Origin: Deltaproteobacteria bacterium
GTDB lineage: Bacteria > Desulfobacterota > Desulfobulbia > Desulfobulbales > Desulfurivibrionaceae
Assembly (NCBI GenBank): GCA_026388695.1
Contig: JAPLJH010000006.1
Span: forward strand, 1-64,000
DNA length: 64,000 bases
Direction of reading: 5' to 3'
Below the pieces are notes generated by a model, which saw only the letters and a program-made list of their open reading frames with translations, did no database searches and was not told where the DNA came from. Below, in pieces: positions 16,101 to 27,514 of the stretch. Position 1 is the stretch's first letter; each line of letters opens with the position of its first letter. The translations under genes and the position numbers were made by a program.

Positions 16101-16196
16101 TAGGAGAAGGCAAAGCAGGCGGGGCGCATGCTTAAGCCGGTTCCAGATTTTCCGCGTCGCAGAACTGTTTGAGGGAAGCCAGGGCTGTTTCCGCAC
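13131..16196 (-). CDS. Secreted three-domain protein: M1-peptidase-like, ChaN/Tiki-like and PDZ
   Basis: 1021 residues from a GTG at 16196; no ATG precedes the signal peptide (hydrophobic segment about residues 25-48, ending AQSAAA). Residues about 50-500 resemble an M1 metallopeptidase: HEVLHSW at 289-295 and a glutamate 18 residues after the second histidine (E311 in [11 protein letters not shown]). The GAMEN exopeptidase motif is absent (that position reads GYAMPTF). Residues about 680-915 form a ChaN/haem-binding-uptake (Tiki superfamily) domain: [31 protein letters not shown] and [16 protein letters not shown] domain closes the protein at about 925-1020 ([17 protein letters not shown]). 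The start overlaps the end of trmFO by 65 bp, suggesting translational coupling. It would act in the periplasm; the substrate is unknown. Confidence 0.85.
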
Positions 16197-17484
16197 GTTG
16201 TTGTCCTCGCAGTTTTTTTGGTAGCTTCGTCGCCCAGGCCGGGAACAGGCCGAAGTTGATGTTGGAGGGTTGGAAATGCTTGGGGTCGGTCAGGGTCAGA
16301 TGGCCGATCAAAGCGCCCAGGGCGGTGTCGTTGGGCAGCTCAAGAGCCGGTTGCTCATGAGCCAGCCGCACCGCATTGATCCCGGCCAGCAAGCCCATGG
16401 CCGTGGACTCCACATAACCCTCCACTCCTGTGAGCTGCCCGGCCAGCAGGAGATCGGGCCGGTTTTTCACTTGCAGGCTGGGGAGCAGCACCTTGGGTCC
16501 GCAGACAAAGGTGTTGCGGTGGATGCTGCCGAGCCGGGCGAACTCTGCCTGGGCCATGCCCGGAATCAGGCGGAACACCGTCTGCTGCGCGCCATAGGTC
16601 AGCTTGGTCTGAAAGCCCACCATATTGTAGAGCAACCCATCCTTTTTTTCCATGCGGAGCTGGACCACGGCGTACGGGTCGCGGCCGGTTCTCGGGTCGG
16701 GCAGTCCCACCGGTTTCATGGGCCCGAAGCGGAGGGTGTTCTCGCCGCGCTCCATCATGACCTCGATGGGAAGACAGCCCTCAAAGTATTTTTGTTCCTC
16801 GAATTCCTTGAGCGGCACCTTGTCGGCGTTGCGCATGGCCTCGATAAAGGCCGCGTATTCGTCGCGGTTCATGGGGCAGTTCAGGTAATCGCCTGGCCCG
16901 TCATCATAGCGGGAGGCCCGGTAGACGATGCTCATGTCCAGGGAGTCGGCGCTAACAATGGGAGCGATGGCGTCGTAAAAGGCCAGGTGCTCTTCCCCGG
17001 TGAGTTGGGCCAGGGATGCGGCAAGGGGTGCAGAGGTGAGCGGGCCGGAGGCCAGGATCATCGGCCAGGTTCCGACAGGAGGGAGTTCGGTGACTTCCTC
17101 CCTAACCACGGTGATGGCCGGATGCAAATCGATTTTTTCGGTGATAAACTGGGCAAAAAGCTCACGATCCACGGCCAGGGCCCGACCAGCCGGAACCTGG
17201 GTCTGGTCGGCTGCCGCCATGATCAGGGAGCCCAGGCGACGCATCTCTTCTTTAAGCAGACCTACAGCGGAAGAGACATCGGCGGAACGCAGGGAGTTGC
17301 TGCACACCAGTTCGGCCAACTGCGGCAACTCATGGGCCGGACTGAAGCGTACCGGTTTCATCTCATGGAGCGTTACCCTGCAGCCGCGCTGGGCAGCTTG
17401 CCAGGCGGCCTCGCATCCCGCGTGGCCGCCGCCGATGATGGTGATATCCGGGGTATTAGAGGCCAAGTTGCTTCTTGATGGCAT
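16132..17484 (-). CDS. trmFO: tRNA (uracil-54-C5) methyltransferase, folate/FAD-dependent
   Basis: 450 residues from ATG 17484; this start overlaps the end of adk by 29 bp, and a TTG at 17466 is an alternative. The N-terminal dinucleotide fold [16 protein letters not shown], then [20 protein letters not shown] and the C-terminal [20 protein letters not shown] are hallmarks of TrmFO, related to MnmG. It makes ribothymidine at position 54 of tRNA using methylenetetrahydrofolate and FAD. Cysteine motifs [11 protein letters not shown] and [11 protein letters not shown] include the catalytic cysteines. It sits between adk and the M1/ChaN gene in an overlapping string, so all three are probably one operon. 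Confidence 0.95.
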
Positions 17485-18103
17485 CAACCACCACGTCGCT
17501 GGAGGTGCCAACGATGGATTTCAGCAACCCTGACTTCTCGTAAAAACCGGCCAGAGGTGCGGTCTTCTCGTTGTAGGTGTCCAGACGGTGGGCGATGGCC
17601 TCTTGGGTTTCATCCTCGCGCTGGATCGCCGGGCTGCCGCATTTGTCGCAGATCCCTTCCACCTTGGTCGGGTTGCTCTTGGTGTTGTAGATCGCCTGAC
17701 AGGTGGAATTGGTGCAGGTTCTTCTGGTGCAGAGCCGGTCGAAGATCACATCGCGGGGCACGTCGATGGAAGCGACCATGTCCAATTTGATGCCCAGTTT
17801 CTGCAAGAGCGCGGTCAGGGCTTCGGCCTGGGGGATGGTGCGGGGGAAGCCGTCCAGCAAAAAGCCCTTGGCGCAATCGGGCTCTTGGAGGCGGTTTTCC
17901 ATGATGCCCATGATCAATGAGTCGGGAACCAAGTCGCCGCGATTCATGTAGCCCTCTGCTTCCTTGCCCAGTGGGGTGCCGGCCTGAACCGCGCCGCGGA
18001 GAATGTCGCCTGTGGAAATCTGTACCGAGCCGTCGATGGCGGTGAGCAGCTTTGCTACTGTGCCTTTGCCTGCGCCGGGTGCGCCCAAAAGAATAAGTTT
18101 CAT
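17456..18103 (-). CDS. adk: Adenylate kinase (zinc-LID type)
   Basis: 215 residues from ATG 18103, with AGGAG about 9 bp upstream. The P-loop GAPGAGKGT is at residues 7-15, DGFPRT is present, and the LID contains several cysteines ([11 protein letters not shown] ... CDKCGS) able to bind a structural zinc. It interconverts AMP+ATP and 2 ADP in the cytoplasm. A second, different adenylate kinase is encoded at 59020-59700. The 5' untranslated region contains a long imperfect hairpin (18173-18229). trmFO overlaps its 3' end. Confidence 0.95.
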
Positions 18104-18172
18104 GGTGTTTCTCCTGTTTCGATGAATGTATGCCCGCAACAGACGGCACGGGGCCGCAATGGGGGTAAGGGT

Positions 18173-18229
18173 TTGCCGGAATACCAGCAGCGCTGCTTGC
18201 ACTGCTATTAGCGGCGCTGGCCTCGGCAA
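18173..18229 (-). other. Imperfect hairpin in the adk leader
   Basis: TTGCCG (18173-18178) pairs with CGGCAA (18224-18229) and CCAGC (18184-18188) with GCTGG (18216-18220), with further G/C pairing inside. It lies 70-126 bp upstream of the adk start. No known riboswitch was recognised; it could be a leader structure or a remnant repeat. Confidence 0.45.
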
Positions 18230-18364
18230 GTAGAATCCGGGTCGCAACTATACCCGATTTTTGTTGTGGATGGTAGGGGAATCATCGCTGTTTGGGTATT
18301 GCCTTGTCAGCATGAGGCAGGAAGTTCATGCTACACGCGGCGAAGAGCGAAGGTGCGGCGGGAA

Positions 18365-18562
18365 TCAGACTCGCTCGATCTCGATGCATTTTTCAGGGCA
18401 CATGGCTGCGGCCCGGTCCAGAGATTCGCTGCACGCCACGGTGTCGGAGGTGGATTCTGCTTTTTCCGAGGACTCGTTCATTCGGAAGACCTCCGGGCAG
18501 ATGACCACGCAGGTTTCGCAACTGTTGCAGCGGTAGGTGTCGATGTTTACCCGGCAGTTCAT
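18365..18562 (-). CDS. Small [4Fe-4S] ferredoxin
   Basis: 65 residues, acidic. The N-terminal cluster motif C-x2-C-x2-C-x3-CP (CNSCETCVVICP, residues 12-23) is intact, and the C-terminal half has MCPEKCIEI supplying the remote CP cysteine. Only one complete cluster motif is present; the second half has lost the C-x2-C-x2-C part, as in monocluster ferredoxins of sulfate reducers. It would carry electrons in the cytoplasm. It follows the hemerythrin gene on the same strand but is separated from it by a strong terminator hairpin. Confidence 0.92.
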   Translation of the reverse strand: MNCRVNIDTYRCNSCETCVVICPEVFRMNESSEKAESTSDTVACSESLDRAAAMCPEKCIEIERV

Positions 18563-18588
18563 GGGGACTCCGTGATGTCTGTAAGTTG

Positions 18589-18629
18589 AAAAAGGCCGGA
18601 GGAACGGAGCTGGCTGCTCCTTCGGCCTT
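18589..18629 (-). terminator. Intrinsic terminator downstream of the hemerythrin gene
   Basis: On the minus strand AAGGCCG (18629-18623) pairs with CGGCCTT (18598-18592) and GGAGC with GCTCC inside, loop TGGCT complement at 18611-18615. A T run (complement of A at 18589-18593) follows. It sits just after the hemerythrin stop codon and before ferredoxin. Confidence 0.65.
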
Positions 18630-18641
18630 GTGCGGGATCGG

Positions 18642-19049
18642 TTATTTCACGCCCTTGCTTTTCAGGTAGGGGCTGTATTTTTGGTCTGTTTCCATGATGT
18701 GCTTGTCCAGCCAGTTTTTGAGGAAGTTCATCACCTCGATGCTGACTGTGCTTTTGCCGCTTTGCACTTCGCCGATGAGCGCCGTGACCTTGTCGGTCAT
18801 CTTGCGATGTTTGTCCTTGTGGTCGGCGGTTTCCGGGTAGGCATGGGTGTCGAACAGTTTTTCCTCCACGGCGAAATGGCTCACGCAGTAGTTGGCGAGC
18901 TTGTTTAGCACCGTCATCAGGACCTCCTTGCCCTTGCCCGCCAGCATGGCGTCGTTGAGTTCGTTGATCATGATGATGAGTTGTTTGTGCTGGTCATCGA
19001 TTTCTCGGATGCCCACGGAATACTTGTCCTGCCAGGTTAAAAGTGCCAT
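18642..19049 (-). CDS. Bacteriohemerythrin
   Basis: 135 residues with the seven-ligand diiron pattern: H in DDQHKQL, H and E in HFAVEEKLF, two H in DHKDKHRKM, and H and D in DKHIMETDQKY. The opening LTWQDKYSVGIREIDDQH is characteristic of single-domain bacteriohemerythrins, which bind O2 reversibly and in anaerobes and microaerophiles are thought to store, deliver or scavenge oxygen, or to sense it. No signal peptide is present. A GGAGG-type site precedes ATG 19049. The gene appears monocistronic because of the terminator immediately downstream. Confidence 0.95.
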   Translation of the reverse strand: MALLTWQDKYSVGIREIDDQHKQLIIMINELNDAMLAGKGKEVLMTVLNKLANYCVSHFAVEEKLFDTHAYPETADHKDKHRKMTDKVTALIGEVQSGKSTVSIEVMNFLKNWLDKHIMETDQKYSPYLKSKGVK

Positions 19050-19157
19050 TGTTGCCTCCTGTTCGAGTAGTCGTTGTCTTGACGGAAAAAACTGTGTCTG
19101 GGATCAGGATAGTATTTTATGGGAATTTTTATCAAGTAGAAAAAATGTTTTTTTGGT

Positions 19158-19234
19158 CGTCATTCCGGCGTAGGGAAATCAGTATCTTTAGGCAAGTGCA
19201 GGTATGCTGGACCCTGGCATCCGCCGGGGTGACG
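19158..19234. repeat. REP-like palindromic element
   Basis: Ends CGTCATTCCGGCG (19158-19170) and CGCCGGGGTGACG (19222-19234) are inverted copies with 11 of 13 positions matching. Such 'GTCATTCCGGCG ... CGCCGGGGTGACG' pairs are common short interspersed palindromes in proteobacterial genomes. It lies in the 423-bp gap between the hemerythrin and chemoreceptor genes. Confidence 0.6.
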
Positions 19235-19284
19235 AGTTGTTGCGAGGCCGATCAACATCGGGGAGAAAACACCCCGCATGCCGC

Positions 19285-19327
19285 AAAAAAACAGAGGCCA
19301 TTTCCGGAGGGGCGGAAATGGCCTCTG
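19285..19327 (-). terminator. Strong intrinsic terminator of the chemoreceptor gene
   Basis: A 15-bp perfect stem, 19292-19306 (CAGAGGCCATTTCCG) with 19313-19327, encloses a 6-base loop. On the minus strand it is followed by seven T (complement of A at 19285-19291). It is 146 bp beyond the chemoreceptor stop codon. Confidence 0.85.
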
Positions 19328-19472
19328 AGTGCCGCTTGGGGCGGCGAGGAAGAGGGGGGAAGAAGAAACAAGGTGAAAAGAAACCAAGGGGAGGAGATTT
19401 CTTTGTTTTCACGTTGCCTATGAATTTAAGACCTTCCCCTCTTTGTAAAAGTTCCCATTTTTTTTAAAAGAA

Positions 19473-21074
19473 TCAAAAATCCTCGAAGTCATCGCCCATG
19501 GGGATGATGTCCTCGGGCTTTGATCCCCTTGCCGGTGTCTTCTTCGCCGCAGGGGGAAGAGCCTTTCTGGCCGGGGCCGCGAGTTTTTTGGCGCTGGATT
19601 GCATCGGAGTGGGGGGGCGTCGCAGCCTTTGGGCATCCTGTCGCTGTTTCACTGGGCCTTCTGCGCCGCCCACCATTTCGAGCAGGTTGCCTACCGAGGC
19701 CTTCATCATCTCCGCCTGGGCGTTCAACTCTTCGGAGGCAGAGGCGGATTCTTCCGCTGCTGCCGCGTTGCTTTGAGTTACGGTGTCGATTTCGTGGATG
19801 GCCTTGGTAACCTGGGTGACGGCATTGGCCTGCTGGCTTGCCGATCCGGCGATCTCGCTAATAATGGTGCCGATGCGGGTGGTGGATTCGGCGGCGGTGT
19901 TGAAGGATTCACTGGTTTCCTTGACCAGGGCGCTGCCGGTGTTGACCTTCTGCACCGTGCCTTCGATAAGATTAGAGGTGTTCTTCGCCGCCTCCGCCGC
20001 ACGCATGGCCAGGTTACGAACCTCGTCGGCCACCACGGCAAATCCCGCCCCGGCCTCACCGGCTCTGGCTGCTTCCACCGCAGCGTTGAGGGCCAACAGG
20101 TTGGTCTGGAAGGCGATCTCGTCGATGGTTTTGACGATCTTCTGGGTTTGGGCGCTGGCAGCGGAGATTTCTTCCATGGAGACGGTGAGCTTTCGCATGG
20201 ATTCGTCCGCGCTCAGGATTACCGTGTTGGCCTCTTTCATCAGGTCGTCGGCCTGCCGGGCATGGTCGGCATCCTGCTTGACCATGGCCCCGACCTCTTC
20301 CAGGGAGGCGGAGGTTTCTTCCACTGCCGCTGCCTGTTGGGAAGCGCCTTCGGCCAAGGTCTGACTGGAGGATGATACCTCGCCCGCAGCTGCAGCCACC
20401 TGCTCTGCCCCTTCGTTTAAGGTCAGGCTGACCTGCTTGAGGGTGGTGGATATCCCCTTGCCCAGGAAAAAGGCCAGGGCCGAGCCGCTGCCTAAGGCAA
20501 TAACACCCAAAGCTAGGGCCAGCAAACCGAGAAATTTGGCCCGCTCCTTGGCGGTAACCGTGTCTTGGTTCGCCTCGTCCTGGACGGTTTTGTACATCTC
20601 TACCAGGATCGGTTCCGCGATATGGGAGGCCTCTTTAATCTTTGGCAGAAGGCTCATCCGCTCATATTCGGGAGCAGTGAATACAAGCTCGACATTTTTC
20701 TGGTAGGTGTTCACTGCCGCGCTGACTTTCTGGACATCCTCGATCAACTTGGTTTTGCCGCTCTTCTTGGCCATGGACTCGATGGTATCCAATTGGTCCT
20801 CAAGGTCAGCAAAGCTGTCTTTCTGCGATTTTATATGTTTCTCATCTCCGGAGATGAGAAAGTCCTTTTCGAAGCGGCGACACTTGTTGAGGTCGTTCCT
20901 GGCGGTGAGGGCGCGCACGGCAATGGACATCTCCACCTCAAGGAGCTCGCTGAACGAGGAGGTGGCGGAGGAGAGCGCGAATTGGTAAACGCCCACGATG
21001 ATGGCGGTCAGGAGCAACACGATACCAAAGCCACCGCCGATTTTTTTGCCTATTGTTGTCTGTTGTCTGGCCAT
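19473..21074 (-). CDS. Methyl-accepting chemotaxis protein
   Basis: 533 residues. Two membrane segments (about 11-33 and 183-206) flank a ~150-residue helical periplasmic sensor of the four-helix-bundle kind. The cytoplasmic part is a long coiled coil whose tip carries the conserved [20 protein letters not shown] segment that contacts CheA/CheW. The typical HAMP region is poorly recognisable ([19 protein letters not shown]). The C-terminus is a basic Ala/Pro/Lys linker ending in an acidic aromatic tail (GDDFEDF), not the NWETF receptor pentapeptide but possibly a docking tail. The gene stands alone with its own strong terminator. The ligand is unknown. Confidence 0.93.
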
Positions 21075-21203
21075 TTCTCTCCTCCGCGCAGCGGGTTGAT
21101 CATTGGAAAATTTGTGTGAATTACTTCAATACTTTACAGCATATAGAAAAATAGGAGATGGCGTCAAGCCCTGTTTTGCAGGATGGACGCTTTTTTGTGC
21201 CGG

Positions 21204-22886
21204 TCAATCGCGGCTGAGCACCCGGCCCAGAGTGGCGTCCACGGCCAGGGCCTGCTGCATCCGGTCCTTGAGGAAGGATTCGCTGAGATATTTCCGGTTG
21301 TCCTCGATCAGGGTGCAGAGCGTTTCGATGTCGCCGGATTCGGCAAGTTTGGTGATCCGGTCGAGGTTTTCGGCAAAGCTTTGGACAATGCGACGGCCTT
21401 GGCCGCTGGTGGCCATGATCTCTGCGTAGGTTCTGGGGTTTTGCCCATGCACCCTGGCCATGGAGAGGATGGAGTAGAGCGAGGTCAGGGTGGCGTGGCT
21501 ACCGATGGCCTCCGGGGGGATGGCGTTGTCCTTGAGGGCCATGGCCAGGGCGACCGAGATGGAGGTGGGCAGCTTCTGGCTGACCCCCATCATCAGGTCG
21601 TGCTGGCCCGGCGCGTCCAGGGAAATCTTGGCTCCGTGCTTGTATAAAAAGGCCTCGAACTCGCTGCTCAACACGCCGCTGCGCGCAGTGCGGACCACCG
21701 AAGCGTTCTTGTCCTTCATCGTTGCGGCTTGCGGCCCCCACAGGTTATGGACCAGCAGCACCTCCACCCCCTCCTTGGTGTGGCTCAGGGCGGTGTGCAG
21801 CACGTTTTCCGCCTCGCCCGCCAGCAGGATCAGGGCCTGGTTTTCCGCCAGCAGCGGTCCGTATTCCGCCACTGCCGCAGGGGTGGCGCTGATGGGTACG
21901 CAGATCACCACCACCTCCACCTGGGGGATCATTGCTTCGGGCCGCAGCGCGGTGCTGCGGCCGGTGATCATGGTTTCGTAGCCTTCGCTTTTCAGGCGCT
22001 CGGCAAACCAGAGGCTCATGTCGCCGCTGCCGATAAAACCAAAGGTCTTGATGCGCTTGACCCGCATGTCCACCCTGGGGAAGCTGCCCAGCACCCGCAC
22101 CGAGCCCGGCTCCTGGATGATCTGGTGCTCGATGCGCTCGATGGCTTGGCGAACCCGCTCGTCGGCAAGATGCCCCTCGAACTCGATGAAGAATTGCAGC
22201 TTCTGGCTCTGGGGGTCGGTTTCCGTCTGCATGTCGATGAGGTTGATGCTGCGCTTGGTAAACTCGTGCAAAATTTCCGCCAGGATGCCGACCCGGTCCT
22301 TGATCGGAGTGGTGACCATGGCGGTCGCGTCATACCCAGTGCGGGGGGCCGGAGTCTGGCCCAGCACGGCGTAGCGGGTCCGGTTGTGGGGCACGATCTC
22401 TCGGGCGCGGATGGCGAAGCCGTAGGCGCGCAAGGCCTCCTCCGATTCGATGACCCCGTGGCCGACAAGTCCCTTCGCCTTGATGTCGCGCACTGCCGCG
22501 TCCAGATCATGTACCGAGGTAAGGGTGGCGTCGGGGTAGACGCTGGTGATGTAGTCCTCGCATTGCCGCAGCACTCCGCTTTTTCCCAGGAGCATGGTGA
22601 GGGGTGCGTTGGCGTCAAGGCTGCCCAGGGAAAGATGGATGGGCAGAACGATGTTATCCTGCCAGAAGCCCTTGTCCATGGCCTTGATCAGGCGGCTGTA
22701 TTCCTTGACCTGACCCTCGCGGGTATTGAAAACCGGCGCCAGGGCCAGATCGGTTTCCTGGGCGGCAAAGGCCGTGAACACTGCAGCGAGATTCGGGAAA
22801 AGCCTGATGGTTGCGTCCGGGTTGTACTGGCGGGCTGCCTGCCAGGCGAGGGAGCCTTCCGGGCCGAGGGTGGCTATGGAAACCAT
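21204..22886 (-). CDS. Prephenate dehydratase-ACT-prephenate dehydrogenase fusion
   Basis: 560 residues from ATG 22886. Residues 1-~185 are a prephenate dehydratase (PheA-type) domain starting IATLGPEGSLAW; the catalytic TRF motif appears as TRY in HNRTRYAVLG. Residues ~190-275 are an ACT domain (DRVGILAEILHEFTKRSIN). Residues ~280-555 form a TyrA-like dehydrogenase: nucleotide-binding GFIGSGDMSLWF, VVVICVPISAT, VHNLWGPQ in the place of the usual HPMFGP, and GQHDLMMGVSQKLPTS. One polypeptide would therefore convert prephenate both to phenylpyruvate and to 4-hydroxyphenylpyruvate, with phenylalanine feedback probably through ACT. No chorismate mutase domain is present. The dehydratase domain is less canonical than usual. 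Confidence 0.82.
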   Translation of the reverse strand: MVSIATLGPEGSLAWQAARQYNPDATIRLFPNLAAVFTAFAAQETDLALAPVFNTREGQVKEYSRLIKAMDKGFWQDNIVLPIHLSLGSLDANAPLTMLLGKSGVLRQCEDYITSVYPDATLTSVHDLDAAVRDIKAKGLVGHGVIESEEALRAYGFAIRAREIVPHNRTRYAVLGQTPAPRTGYDATAMVTTPIKDRVGILAEILHEFTKRSINLIDMQTETDPQSQKLQFFIEFEGHLADERVRQAIERIEHQIIQEPGSVRVLGSFPRVDMRVKRIKTFGFIGSGDMSLWFAERLKSEGYETMITGRSTALRPEAMIPQVEVVVICVPISATPAAVAEYGPLLAENQALILLAGEAENVLHTALSHTKEGVEVLLVHNLWGPQAATMKDKNASVVRTARSGVLSSEFEAFLYKHGAKISLDAPGQHDLMMGVSQKLPTSISVALAMALKDNAIPPEAIGSHATLTSLYSILSMARVHGQNPRTYAEIMATSGQGRRIVQSFAENLDRITKLAESGDIETLCTLIEDNRKYLSESFLKDRMQQALAVDATLGRVLSRD

Positions 22887-22920
22887 GTGATGACCTGTGG
22901 GTTGCGTGGTTGATCTTGCC

Positions 22921-23046
22921 AAACTCCCCCTCCATTTACGGGAGGGGGCTGGGTGGGTGAAGGTGGCAGCTACCGCATCTGGGCTTCCACCTCATCCCGA
23001 CCCTCTCCCGCAGGTAAGCGAAGACTCCGGGGGAAGAGGGAGTTTT
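22921..23046 (+). repeat. G/C-run palindromic intergenic repeat, copy C
   Basis: About 126 bp upstream of the PheA/TyrA fusion. It opens AACTCCCCCTCCATTTACGG and continues GAGGGGGCTGGGTGGGTGAA; the far end has CCCTCTCCCGCAGG ... GGGGGAAGAGGGAGTT. It shares its ends with copies A and B; the inner part carries extra bases near 23015-23030. Confidence 0.7.
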
Positions 23047-23105
23047 CTGCTATGCGGACAGAACCTTTCTTCTTTTAGTGTGTTCGTAAGGGCTGGTCAA
23101 TAGCT

Positions 23106-23145
23106 TTCCTTACCCAGGCCGGTACCGGCTAGCCTGGGTAAGGAA
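23106..23145. other. Long hairpin between the Cache-protein and PheA/TyrA genes
   Basis: TTCCTTACCCAGGC (23106-23119) and GCCTGGGTAAGGAA (23132-23145) form a perfect 14-bp stem around CGGTACCGGCTA. No T run follows on either strand, so it is not a typical terminator; it may be a processing or repeat structure. Confidence 0.55.
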
Positions 23146-23266
23146 GGTGGACATGTTCCGGCAAGCAGCCCATCAGGAAAGGATGATGAAACTGAAGCGG
23201 GAATAGGGGGGATGAAAAGTATGGCTTTGGTTCACACTGATTTGTGACAGCCAGACCTGTGTCAAA

Positions 23267-23821
23267 TTATTTGGGATTTGTCGCAAGCAACTTGTCGGCT
23301 GTTGCCTTATCGCAATAAATCCCGCAGCCTACCACATAATCCTTGTCAGCTTTTACAAGTTTCACATAGGAAACTTTCTGTACCGGCGCGTCTGAACCGG
23401 GCTTGGGCCACATATAAGCAACCCAACCGGCTCCGCTTTTTTTACAAAGATCGTTCATATCGCTGAAAAGTGGCTTGCCGTTTGGGTCTTTAATCCCTAA
23501 GATCTTGGTCCCGTCAAGAGTATCTTTCAAAGGATGCACGATCATTTTTCCGTTTAAATCATGAATCCAGATATAGGTGCCATTGCCGATAAATTCACTG
23601 TCGCCTTTGAATTTATCTATGGATTTACTTCCTTCAGCCATTACTAGTTTGGCAGCTTTTTCAACCCGCGCAATAATCTGGTCCGGAGTGATAGGGGCAC
23701 CAACCTCGGCCTTTTTCGCGGCCTGCGCAGACAATCCCTCCGAGGACTCGGCAAAAGCATTGCCTACGGCGAACATTCCCACAAGAGACATGGAAAGCAT
23801 AATGCCAATAAATCGTTTCAT
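23267..23821 (-). CDS. Secreted single-Cache-domain protein
   Basis: 184 residues from ATG 23821, which has AAGGAG about 8 bp upstream. A signal peptide covers about residues 1-24 (ends GNAFAES). The mature protein has the Cache pattern: helix PDQIIARVEKAAKLV, then GTYIWIHDLNGKMIVHP, LFSDMNDLCKKSGAGWVAY, and paired cysteines near the end (VVGCGIYCDKA). Similar soluble periplasmic Cache proteins bind small ligands and may feed chemoreceptors; a chemoreceptor and Che genes are nearby, but a partnership is only inferred. The local DNA is somewhat A+T-rich. It is monocistronic by position. Confidence 0.8.
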   Translation of the reverse strand: MKRFIGIMLSMSLVGMFAVGNAFAESSEGLSAQAAKKAEVGAPITPDQIIARVEKAAKLVMAEGSKSIDKFKGDSEFIGNGTYIWIHDLNGKMIVHPLKDTLDGTKILGIKDPNGKPLFSDMNDLCKKSGAGWVAYMWPKPGSDAPVQKVSYVKLVKADKDYVVGCGIYCDKATADKLLATNPK

Positions 23822-24060
23822 TGAGGACTCCTTTTCGTTGAATGAAGTAATACGGAAAACTATGCACAAAGCCTATTGAAAATAATGCTCTCAAAAAAAA
23901 TGGGTAAAATCAAGAGATTATCAGGAAGAAATCATTTTTTTTGATAAGCGCTAATCAGAATACTTTTTTTGGGAGGCGCTGCGGAAAACCGGAGATGTGG
24001 CGGGGCAAGGAAGGTTTGAAACGTTTGAAATGGCGGACGACGGACTGGTCCGAAAATATT

Positions 24061-24453
24061 TCAGGCCACGGCCTGTGCCTGTGGCAGGGCGGAAGCGATC
24101 TGGCTCAGAACTTCTGCGGGAACGAAAGGCTTATCGATGTAGGAAGCGTGGCCGCGTTTGTGGAGCTGCCGGAGGAGCTCCTTGTCGCCGTAACCGGTGA
24201 TGACCATGATGGGGATCGAGATGCCCGCTCTCTGGAGTTTGTCGATCAGGCCAAGGCCATCGAGTTCCGGCATTTTGAAATCGGTGATGATCAGGCTGAT
24301 GGGGCGGCTGGCAGGCTGTTGTTGGATCTTCTCATAGGCATCCCGGCCATTGGTCGCCAGGATCACGCTGAAACCGGCTTGGCGCAATACTAAATGCAGG
24401 GCCAGCCGGGTGTGTTTCTCGTCTTCCGCTATCAGGATGTGTGGACTGATCAT
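24061..24453 (-). CDS. CheY-like single-domain response regulator
   Basis: 130 residues, a receiver domain only. The acidic pocket is at EDE near residues 10-12, the phospho-acceptor aspartate in ITDFKMPELDG (about D58), the switch threonine in VITGYGD, and the lysine in IDKPF. No output domain. It could interact with a flagellar or other motor, or relay phosphate within the nearby chemotaxis-like set. It starts 21 bp after the cheD stop and is probably co-transcribed with cheD. Confidence 0.9.
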   Translation of the reverse strand: MISPHILIAEDEKHTRLALHLVLRQAGFSVILATNGRDAYEKIQQQPASRPISLIITDFKMPELDGLGLIDKLQRAGISIPIMVITGYGDKELLRQLHKRGHASYIDKPFVPAEVLSQIASALPQAQAVA

Positions 24454-24474
24454 GGTGTGTACCGGCCCTGGGTG

Positions 24475-25095
24475 CTACTGGGCGGCCTGTCTACTCATGG
24501 CTTGCGCGAAGCTTTTTGCGAGGCTGGGGGCGATGCGCCGCACAAAAACTTCGCCGGTGTCGGTGTTGAAAAATAGCTTGTATCCCTTGGTGCCTCCGGT
24601 TTTCTGTACATTGGGGGTAAGGCCAAAACGGGCAAGTGCCGTAAGGGCGGCGGTAATATTCTGTTGGCCGATGGCAAGTCCATCGGGGGTGGGCAGGCCG
24701 GTTTGGATGACGCTTGCCCCGCCGAACATTTTTACTGTCAGCGCTGATGGGGCGAGGCCGAAGCGGCTGGCCATGGTTTCGAGCATGTGGGGCACCACCG
24801 TGTCCAGATACGGGAAATGCCCGGCAACGGGCGGTTTTGTCTGGCGGGGCAGCATGCCGTGGCAGATGGCCCCGATCCTGAATTTCTCGCTGTGCAGGCA
24901 CAGGGAAACGCATGAGCCGAGGATGGTGGAGACAATGGATGCCTGTTTGGTGATCAGCAGCTTGCCGGGAGGCAGGTTTATAACCGGGAGATCGGGGTAA
25001 GACAGCAAAAGAGGGATTTGCAACATGGATGGGGCCAGTCCTGTGGGAGGAGGTTGTGGAATGGCGGCAATTATCGGTGTTCCGCCGTGCTCCAT
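24475..25095 (-). CDS. cheD: Chemoreceptor glutamine deamidase CheD
   Basis: 206 residues from ATG 25095, supported by GGGAG about 7 bp upstream; an internal ATG at 25026 lacks a site. The catalytic cysteine is in STILGSCVSLCL and the histidine in GAICHGMLP; VKMFGGAS is the third family signature. CheD deamidates receptor glutamines and in some bacteria is released by CheC or CheY-P. There is an N-terminal extension of about 35 residues before the usual start of the domain. It lies between a receiver gene downstream and a short CheW upstream; no cheA, cheB, cheC or cheR is seen in the window. Confidence 0.92.
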   Translation of the reverse strand: MEHGGTPIIAAIPQPPPTGLAPSMLQIPLLLSYPDLPVINLPPGKLLITKQASIVSTILGSCVSLCLHSEKFRIGAICHGMLPRQTKPPVAGHFPYLDTVVPHMLETMASRFGLAPSALTVKMFGGASVIQTGLPTPDGLAIGQQNITAALTALARFGLTPNVQKTGGTKGYKLFFNTDTGEVFVRRIAPSLAKSFAQAMSRQAAQ

Positions 25096-25125
25096 GGAGT
25101 GCTCCCGGTCATTTTTTTGCCTTGC

Positions 25126-25174
25126 AAAAAAAGCCAACTTCCTGCCAAGCCCCCGGAGGGACTTGGCAGGAAGT
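25126..25174 (-). terminator. Strong intrinsic terminator between cheW-like gene and cheD
   Basis: A 13-bp perfect stem, 25137-25149 (ACTTCCTGCCAAG) with 25162-25174, and a 12-base loop. On the minus strand it is followed by TTGGC and seven T (complement of A at 25126-25132). It closes the transcript of the CheW-like gene. Confidence 0.8.
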
Positions 25175-25246
25175 CTTGGATCGGCGAGGGGGGGGGACCG
25201 ATCCAAACGGCTACTTGTGTCAGGCCCGGTCGGGCCTGTAATCTTT

Positions 25247-25585
25247 TTAGTGGGTCTCTCCGATGATCAGCTCGTAGGCGTCTGCTTCCGAATCCAACAG
25301 GGCGCCGAAGATAAGGGGCTGAATCTGGTCGGCGCTTTCCGCCGATAGGATGCAGATCTGTTCGGCAAAGCCGTTGAGACCGGGTGTGGGGTTCATCCGC
25401 AGATCGATGACCGGGACGGTTCTGCCTCGGAAATTTATGATGCCCATGACCGTATCGTTGGCAAGGGGAAGGGCAGAAGCCGACATGAGACCGAGGATTT
25501 CGGTGATCCGCAGCGCGCCGTGGATGTATGTTTCCCGATCAGGTATGAGCGTTGCCAGCGTGGCTTTCACTGCTGATGTTCCCAT
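25247..25585 (-). CDS. Short CheW-like scaffold protein
   Basis: 112 residues; CheW is usually 150-170. The core VMGIINFRGRTVPVIDLRM is the CheW signature loop and strand, and the C-terminal part (QPLIFGALLDSEADAYEL) covers one further barrel segment. The first and last barrel elements appear shortened. The start is secure, with a near-perfect AGGAGG about 7 bp before ATG 25585, so the short length is not an annotation error. CheW couples receptors to CheA. A terminator follows the gene, so cheD may be transcribed separately. Confidence 0.75.
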   Translation of the reverse strand: MGTSAVKATLATLIPDRETYIHGALRITEILGLMSASALPLANDTVMGIINFRGRTVPVIDLRMNPTPGLNGFAEQICILSAESADQIQPLIFGALLDSEADAYELIIGETH

Positions 25586-25867
25586 GGTCTTTCCTCCTGG
25601 GCAGGTGGCATTCGCCTCCGTGGTTTTCGGGGGGTTGCTTCTTGCTTATGGAAGAAATGTGCCAGGCGGGAAAAAAATTGTCTAACTAGATGATATCGCA
25701 TGGAATATTTTTTTATGCGATGGGGCGAAGGGGTGATGGTTGATCAAGATATATTTATTATCGGGATGGGGAATGGGGCTAGGGAGGCAGTGGTGTGGCT
25801 GAAATGAATGAATATTGATGGGTGTCAACAAAAGTTGATGTTCTGTGGGACAGGAGGAAATTAATTT

Positions 25868-26168
25868 GTTCATTTCTTTGCTTGCCCAAAGAAACGAACC
25901 AAAGAAAGGGCACCCTGTGTCCCTTGTCCCGCCGAAGGCGGGATGCCCTGTGCTCCTCGATGCTGCCGGGGCTTTGCAAACTCGGCTGCGCCTCAAACAG
26001 TGCAAATCCCCTTTTCGGCAGCCTCTCCGGTGCTCGGCTGCAGTTTTTCCGCGTCCCGCCCTCGTCGAGAAGTAAGGGAAGCCCGCAGGGCCAGGACTGG
26101 CTGGGGTGCCTTTTTCTTGTTTCTTCTTTTGGGCACGCAAAAGAAGAAAGGGGGAATAGCAAAAAAGT
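25868..26168. repeat. Palindromic intergenic element, copy 3 (internally deleted)
   Basis: Occupies half of the 609-bp gap between the histidine kinase gene and the CheW-like gene. The left half is nearly identical to copy 2 through GGTGCTCGGCTGC. It then jumps directly to AGTTTTTCCGCGTCCCGCCC, omitting about 97 bp that copy 2 has there (3275-3371), and continues to the same inverted right end (26107-26155). The rest of the gap (25586-25867) is A+T-rich, with a small inverted repeat ATCGCAT/ATGCGAT at 25695-25721, and presumably holds the cheW promoter. Confidence 0.85.
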
Positions 26169-26194
26169 CCTTCCCCGACCTTTCGGGATAAACC

Positions 26195-27514
26195 TTATTT
26201 CTCCCCGGACACGGTCATGGGAAAAACCGCTCTGGCAATGGTGCCCTTGCCGGGCTGCGAGTTGAATTCCAGCCGCCCCCCATGCTCTTCCATGATCCCT
26301 GCGGAGATGGAAAGGCCGAGGCCGCTGCCGCCGCCATCGCGTTTGGTGGTGAAAAACGGGTCCAGGATGCGTTTGAGATTTTTTTGGGAAATCCCGCCGC
26401 CTTGGTCTGCTATTTCCACAAAAAGCGTGTCGGTCTTCGCATCCAGGCCGGTGGAAACAGTCAGGTGGTTGTCGGGGGAGGCGAGGGACTGGTAGGCGTT
26501 TTGCAACAGGTTGATGATGACCTGCTCGGTCCGTTGGAAATTGCCCCGCACCGGAGGCAGCCCTTCGCCGTAGTGGATGCTGAGGTGATCGGTCGCTTTT
26601 TTAAGCGGGTTGGCAAGCAGGACCAAGGCGGCGCGTAGCGCGGTGTTGAGGTCAACGTCCTGGTCCATATCGGAGATGCCCTGGCGCGCGTAATCCCGCA
26701 GGTTGAAGACGATCTTGCGGATGCGTTCCGAGCCGTCGAGGATGCCGGAAAAAAGCTCGGGGATATGTTCACGCATCTCGGAAAAGGGGATGCCTGCCAC
26801 GGGAAAATCGCCGTGTTCCTGGTAATGCTCTGCCAATATAGGCAGGAAATCCTCCCAGGCGCGGTGGAGGATGGGGGCGTTCATGGTGATGAAGTTGTTG
26901 GGATTGTTGATTTCATGGGCCACCCCGGCGACCAGGATGCCAAGGGAGACCATTTTGTCGGCTTCGATGAGCTGCCGCCGCCGTTGTTCCGCTTCTTTTT
27001 CCGCTTTTTTTCGGGCCTTGATATCCGCCTGGAGCTGTTTGTTGATGTGGGCCAGTTCTGCGGTTCGTTTGGTTACCAATTGCTCCAGATGGTCGCGGTG
27101 TTGGCTCAGTTCCTGCTGGCTTTTTTTGAGGGCCTTCAGCAGGGCAATCCGTTCCATGCCTCTGGCCAGGGAGACTTCCAGCTCGAGCAGGGAGATCGGT
27201 TTTTGGATATAGTTGATCGCCCCCATTTTCATGGCTTCTACGGCGATGGTAAGATCCGCCTGGCCGGAAATCACGATGCATTCAAGGTCGGGTTGGATGG
27301 CCACGGCCTGTTGCATGAGGGCCAGGCCATCCATATCCGGCATCATGATATCGGTAATCAAAAGATGGAAAGGGTTTTTGCCAAGAAAGGCCAGGGCCTC
27401 CGGGCCGTTGCTCGCACCGATTGCCGCATAGCCGAGGCGCTCCACCTGCATGGTGAGCAGCTTGAGGACCATGGGCTCATCATCAACAACAAGTATTTTT
27501 CCTTTGCTTGCCAT
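26195..27514 (-). CDS. Receiver-histidine kinase (hybrid arranged receiver first)
   Basis: 439 residues. The N-terminal receiver (about 5-120) has VDDE, the aspartate in ITDIMMPDMDG and the lysine in IQKPIS. A coiled coil (about 125-190) leads to the dimerisation/phospho-transfer box VAHEINNPNNF and a HATPase domain (NLLQNAYQSL, DQGGGISQKNL, GGGSGLGLSIS). There is no membrane segment, so it acts in the cytoplasm, probably receiving phosphate from or sensing with another partner. The NtrC-type regulator gene ends 26 bp upstream of its start, so the two form a co-transcribed pair. Confidence 0.93.
   Translation of the reverse strand: MASKGKILVVDDEPMVLKLLTMQVERLGYAAIGASNGPEALAFLGKNPFHLLITDIMMPDMDGLALMQQAVAIQPDLECIVISGQADLTIAVEAMKMGAINYIQKPISLLELEVSLARGMERIALLKALKKSQQELSQHRDHLEQLVTKRTAELAHINKQLQADIKARKKAEKEAEQRRRQLIEADKMVSLGILVAGVAHEINNPNNFITMNAPILHRAWEDFLPILAEHYQEHGDFPVAGIPFSEMREHIPELFSGILDGSERIRKIVFNLRDYARQGISDMDQDVDLNTALRAALVLLANPLKKATDHLSIHYGEGLPPVRGNFQRTEQVIINLLQNAYQSLASPDNHLTVSTGLDAKTDTLFVEIADQGGGISQKNLKRILDPFFTTKRDGGGSGLGLSISAGIMEEHGGRLEFNSQPGKGTIARAVFPMTVSGEK

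Follow-up and report, generated by a model that had tools for sequence, protein, structure and literature searches.

A PDT-ACT-TyrA fusion of Desulfobulbales as a probable TyrA with a remodelled dehydratase copy as its regulatory head

Introduction

The nearest described system to the fusion reported here is the TyrA-AroQ-PheA-ACT protein of Archaeoglobus fulgidus, for which three catalytic domains are listed and which likewise holds prephenate dehydratase (PDT), ACT and TyrA in one chain (PMC1173090). That protein has the opposite order, with TyrA first, and contains chorismate mutase, whereas the fusion has no AroQ and an altered PDT site. In the AroQ-PheA-ACT enzyme (P-protein), known from Proteobacteria and also present in the genome studied here (P0002), PDT-ACT is homologous to that of the fusion over its full length; unlike the fusion, the P-protein has chorismate mutase, Glu159, Ser208 and the ESRP motif, and no TyrA. 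TyrA-ACT proteins such as Bacillus TyrA (5uyy) join TyrA to ACT, as the fusion does, but in general carry the ACT domain C-terminal to TyrA and have no PDT (PMC1173090). The AroQ-TyrA enzymes (T-proteins) of enterics provide the TyrA structure closest to that of the fusion (H. influenzae, 2pv7), but have a chorismate mutase head where the fusion has PDT-ACT, and keep the catalytic serine. We found no earlier description of a PheA-ACT-TyrA fusion in the open-access literature.

Here we describe such a fusion in a 64,000-nucleotide stretch of a Desulfurivibrionaceae genome (the window; contig JAPLJH010000006.1, positions 1 to 64,000). A pathway enzyme appears to have become a regulatory domain in the very enzyme that competes with it; the fusion is order-wide and occurs in cultured members, which makes it testable residue by residue. 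If the protein were annotated automatically as a dehydratase or as bifunctional, models of how Desulfobulbales synthesise Phe and Tyr would be misled.

Results

Architecture of the fusion

The fusion is encoded by one open reading frame (21204–22886) with no internal stop codons:

21204–22886, minus strand: complete PDT-ACT-TyrA fusion gene, 560 amino acids, ATG at 22886, stop codon at 21204–21206
22338–22886, minus strand: PDT-like head with a type II periplasmic-binding fold, residues 1–183 (PF00800 and structure match)
22101–22337, minus strand: ACT domain, residues 184–262 (PF01842)
21615–22052, minus strand: TyrA nucleotide-binding domain, residues 279–424, with the GFIGSGDMS loop and GRST after strand 2
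21207–21614, minus strand: TyrA dimerisation domain, residues 425–560 (Pfam and alignment)

Pfam recognizes PDT at residues 4–178 (PF00800, 93.9 bits against a cut-off of 25.2), ACT at residues 196–253 (PF01842, 33.5 against 27) and PDH_C at residues 426–526 (PF20463, 35.5 against 22); the PDH_N match is weak and below threshold (15.2 against 26.5). No chorismate mutase (CM_2) domain is found by Pfam, and by domain content the protein is neither an AroQ P-protein nor an AroQ T-protein. In an AlphaFold2 model built from 44 sequences (mean pLDDT 84.5, pTM 0.62), residues 1–275 resemble PDT-ACT structures (6vh5, Z 26.2, rmsd 2.8; 3mwb, Z about 26) and residues 277–551 resemble TyrA structures, the best being 2pv7 (Z 24.0, rmsd 3.3, 270 residues). 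Both folds are complete in the predicted structure: a PDT fold followed by ACT (PF00800; 6vh5 and 3mwb), and an N-terminal dinucleotide domain followed by a helical dimerisation domain as in TyrA (PF20463 and the 2pv7 match). Pfam and the model thus agree with the original prediction of a PDT-ACT-TyrA order in one chain without AroQ.

Distribution of the fusion

Matches to the fusion were found in 187 of the 194 sampled genomes of Desulfobulbales, an order of sulfur-metabolising bacteria (all but 12 of the 187 at E < 1e-150) and in 26 of the 27 genomes of the family. About 175 of the 194 hold an essentially full-length fusion, and a co-linear protein is present throughout the genus, family and order, with relatives in Desulfocapsa, Desulfurivibrio, Desulfoprunum, Desulfopila and Desulfobulbus. 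These genera put the window in Desulfobulbales, a lineage confirmed for Desulfurivibrio. The order genomes without a full-length match that were checked show contig ends or frame breaks, or gave no TyrA match whatever. Apparent splits of the fusion were traced to frame breaks in two genomes (G102 and G191) and to a contig end that cuts the gene in a third (G121). Outside Desulfobulbales, no full fusion was found in phylum samples of 148 and 395 genomes, the latter searched at E 1e-28, a threshold that remote variants could escape.

The genome that contains the window is an 87%-complete assembly of 114 contigs from a metagenome, a setting in which a pheA-tyrA join could be a chance event, local to one genome or mis-assembled. 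The full-length fusion occurs order-wide, including single-contig genomes and the records of Desulfoprunum benzoelyticum DSM 28570 and Desulfopila sp. IMCC35008, and this rules out an assembly artefact.

Other Phe and Tyr genes in the same genomes

The genome that contains the window encodes a separate canonical AroQ-PheA-ACT (P0002) on another contig (C67), and AroQ-PheA is present in 57 of the 58 order genomes searched. In one genome (G029) the fusion is the sole match to the AroQ-PheA search, and in two (G032 and G049) AroQ-PheA was matched in pieces. One further genome has, beside its normal AroQ-PheA, a second copy that is only 41% identical and may be foreign or a contaminant (G074, C144:929-1999).

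Searches with PDH_C and PDH_N revealed no second TyrA in the genome that contains the window. Across 16 genomes of the order, of which ten are in a single contig, PDH_N detected the fusion and sub-threshold noise only. No stand-alone TyrA replaces the fusion in the sampled order genomes that lack it, and phenylalanine hydroxylase was found in none of the 16. On these searches we rejected a hidden second TyrA or a phenylalanine hydroxylase; this leaves the fusion as the candidate tyrosine-branch dehydrogenase, and its TyrA half is probably that enzyme for the order.

It had been proposed to look for separate pheA and tyrA genes, an inactive domain with an active copy elsewhere making the fusion a regulator. 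A separate pheA does exist, in the same genome and in nearly all relatives, and for the dehydratase half the proposal largely holds; no separate tyrA turned up in that genome, in the 16 order genomes or in the fusion-lacking relatives, and for the dehydrogenase half it fails.

The dehydrogenase half

Two motifs of the TyrA half depart from the familiar sequence:

21732–21749, minus strand: HNLWGP (residues 380–385), corresponding to HPMFGP, with the catalytic His in 54/54 fusions
21807–21827, minus strand: LLAGEAE (residues 354–360), replacing DLxSxK, with Gly357 for the catalytic Ser and Ala or Ser for Lys178

The equivalents of TyrA His197, Arg294, His245, Gln298 and Tyr303 are invariant in 54/54 fusions, and these include the catalytic His and the substrate-binding Arg (E. 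coli H197 and R294; Arg478 here). The change of the HPMFGP region to VHNLWGP (residues 379–385) was correctly noted at the outset, and HNLWGP is the reading throughout the fusions. The catalytic Ser (E. coli S176, H. influenzae S179) is Gly in 54/54; the 12 stand-alone TyrAs of the phylum all keep it, and keep the Lys as well. This Ser has been described as conserved in all TyrA of all kingdoms (PMC2954222, PMC5681985), a universality that the fusions call into question. With the catalytic Ser replaced by Gly in all fusions and Lys178 gone, it is not certain that even the dehydrogenase half is active.

In E. coli TyrA, inhibition by tyrosine is abolished when His257 is lost (PMC2954222); 51/54 fusions have Thr at this position (Thr441 here), and 11/12 stand-alone TyrAs of the phylum have His. 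This replacement fits feedback control having moved to the PDT-ACT head. The nucleotide loop reads GFIG[ST]G..S, with Ser for the last Gly, and is followed by Arg310, which is invariant, with acidic residues absent at this point; by the logic of PMC2954222, these features point to NADP+ as the putative cofactor.

The dehydratase and ACT head

We compared the PDT domains of 54 fusions with E. coli PheA (L200) and with the AroQ-PheA enzymes of the phylum. Four sites in the head bear on its function:

22722–22730, minus strand: F53-N54-T55, aligned with E159-N160-T161 of E. coli PheA
22560–22586, minus strand: GKSGVLRQC (residues 101–109), aligned with SHPQPFQQC (E. coli 208–216)
22371–22379, minus strand: TRY (residues 170–172), corresponding to the TRF motif, with Thr278 and Arg279 invariant in 54/54
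22215–22229, minus strand: QTETD (residues 220–224), at the ESRP site of Phe-regulated PheA, with Arg/Gln and Glu at the Glu and Arg positions

A passage of PMC8192741, citing Zhang 2000, links Glu159 of E. coli PheA to substrate binding. This position is Tyr in 52/54 and Phe in 2/54 fusions; of the 36 AroQ-PheA rows that have a residue at this position, 35 carry Glu. The Ser208 position is Gly in 50, Ala in 2 and Ser in 2 of the 54, so the Glu159 and Ser208 pair of PDT is absent from the fusions; the His209 position is mostly Arg, Lys or Thr. Other residues are kept: Gly110, Pro111 and Gln215 in 54/54, Asn160 in 53/54 and Cys216 in 52/54. The TRF motif with its Thr278 is also retained, its third residue being Phe in 44/54 and Tyr in 10/54. 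The original prediction rightly read TRY here; with 44 fusions carrying TRF and 10 carrying TRY, we rejected this reading as a mark of altered function.

In the ACT domains of PDT enzymes, ESRP is a motif that binds ligand (PMC10845154). The ACT domain has lost it in 54/54 fusions, which read [RQ][STA]E[NTS] instead; GAL has become G[MLIV]L, so neither Phe-binding motif is present in its known form.

AroQ-PheA enzymes share 76 conserved PDT columns, of which the fusions retain 14, have a different fixed residue in 11 and are relaxed in 51. PDT is the least conserved domain of the fusion (mean pairwise identity 0.50 vs. 0.72 for TyrA-N). On the basis of these fixed and relaxed columns, the low PDT identity and the loss of ESRP, the PDT-ACT head appears to have been rebuilt, not merely decayed, with key dehydratase features lost. 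In a PDT tree, the fusions form one group against AroQ-PheA; long branches meet there, and the PDT donor is therefore not placed.

A shortened fusion in another order

A genome of another order of the same phylum (G528, contig C34, 3838–5226, plus strand) encodes a 462-residue protein, L201, that consists of PDT lobe 1, ACT and TyrA. It shares with the fusion the domain order and Gly for the catalytic Ser, and differs from it in lacking most of PDT lobe 2 and in keeping HxMFGP and Lys178. TRF persists in L201 although the cleft is gone; because there is no closed PDT cleft without lobe 2, L201 can hardly act as a dehydratase. The TyrA of L201 groups with those of the fusions in a tree (support 93/97), a placement on a long branch that carries moderate weight.

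Gene surroundings

Among 48 fusion loci whose neighbours were read by eye, no adjoining aromatic-pathway genes were recognised; the neighbours that recur are an SH3-type and a zinc-ribbon-like protein. In the window, the surrounding genes (16132–27514, all on the minus strand) encode a GidA-family (TrmFO-like) protein, an adenylate kinase with a lid domain, a hemerythrin, a chemoreceptor, a Cache-domain protein, a response regulator, CheD, CheW and a hybrid kinase, all unrelated to the fusion. There are no Rfam matches around the gene. A strong hairpin lies in the gap upstream of it (23108–23143, z −3.6); 15 close relatives do not have the stem sequence in the corresponding stretch, and we rejected the hairpin as a leader element.

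Discussion

Our analysis favours, with a probability of roughly 0.6, an NADP-type TyrA of Desulfobulbales that carries a remodelled second PDT-ACT copy as an N-terminal regulatory head. We infer the dehydrogenase reaction, the cofactor, a regulatory role for the head and its loss of PDT activity from several features taken together: the fusion is the sole TyrA found; the nucleotide loop and Arg310 fit NADP+; the His197, Arg294, His245, Gln298 and Tyr303 equivalents are invariant; a separate AroQ-PheA exists in 57 of 58 genomes; Glu159, Ser208, ESRP and His257 are changed; and L201 has lost lobe 2. In this view the tyrosine precursor would arise at the TyrA half by oxidation of prephenate or a different cyclohexadienyl substrate, with NADP+ the probable cofactor; dehydration by the PDT half would no longer be efficient; and PDT and ACT together may bind a small ligand or form a scaffold, with the signal passed to the dehydrogenase. 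Counting against this explanation, the TyrA half has lost the catalytic Ser and Lys178, and Thr278, Arg279, Gln215 and Asn160 are kept in 53–54 of the 54 fusions, more than is expected of a dead domain, although L201 retains TRF as well.

The same retained residues, the complete PDT-ACT fold of the model and the long-term constraint on both halves across the order would also suit a true bifunctional enzyme, in which PDT makes phenylpyruvate and TyrA makes 4-hydroxyphenylpyruvate from a shared prephenate pool and ACT decides how the flux divides. We consider this unlikely: Glu159 and Ser208 are replaced, His209 and ESRP are lost, a canonical AroQ-PheA coexists, PDT is the fastest-changing domain, and PDT lobe 2 is lost in L201. 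The PDT copy in front of TyrA is more likely a regulatory head than a second working enzyme. Control of both the Phe and the Tyr branch, as originally predicted, finds partial support: on the tyrosine side no other TyrA is found; two sites competing for prephenate fit poorly with the separate AroQ-PheA, the fixed PDT and ACT substitutions and the shortened L201.

Somewhat less probable still is a changed reaction, in which neither half performs its textbook step, the protein catalysing another dehydrogenation or serving mainly as a sensor while tyrosine is made by an unrecognised enzyme. Conserved columns have indeed switched to other fixed residues (11 in PDT and 16 in TyrA, including the catalytic Ser to Gly), and the TyrA family includes members that act on other substrates (PMC1173090). 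However, the catalytic His and Arg are kept, and the replacement of the Ser may be tolerated, since L201 is without it too and yet retains other TyrA motifs. A changed reaction would moreover leave the order without any TyrA, and cultured Desulfobulbales are regarded as amino-acid prototrophs.

Within the favoured reading of a TyrA with a regulatory head, we suggest only tentatively that Desulfobulbales use an order-wide TyrA without the catalytic serine, in which the former PDT is a built-in sensor of prephenate or aromatic compounds that sets the Tyr/Phe split. As to how such a fusion could arise, one genome (G207, L054:1474-4491, minus strand) carries a tandem array of unfused genes for DAHP synthase, AroQ-PheA and a stand-alone TyrA, with few bases between them, and a tandem of this kind could plausibly have served as raw material.
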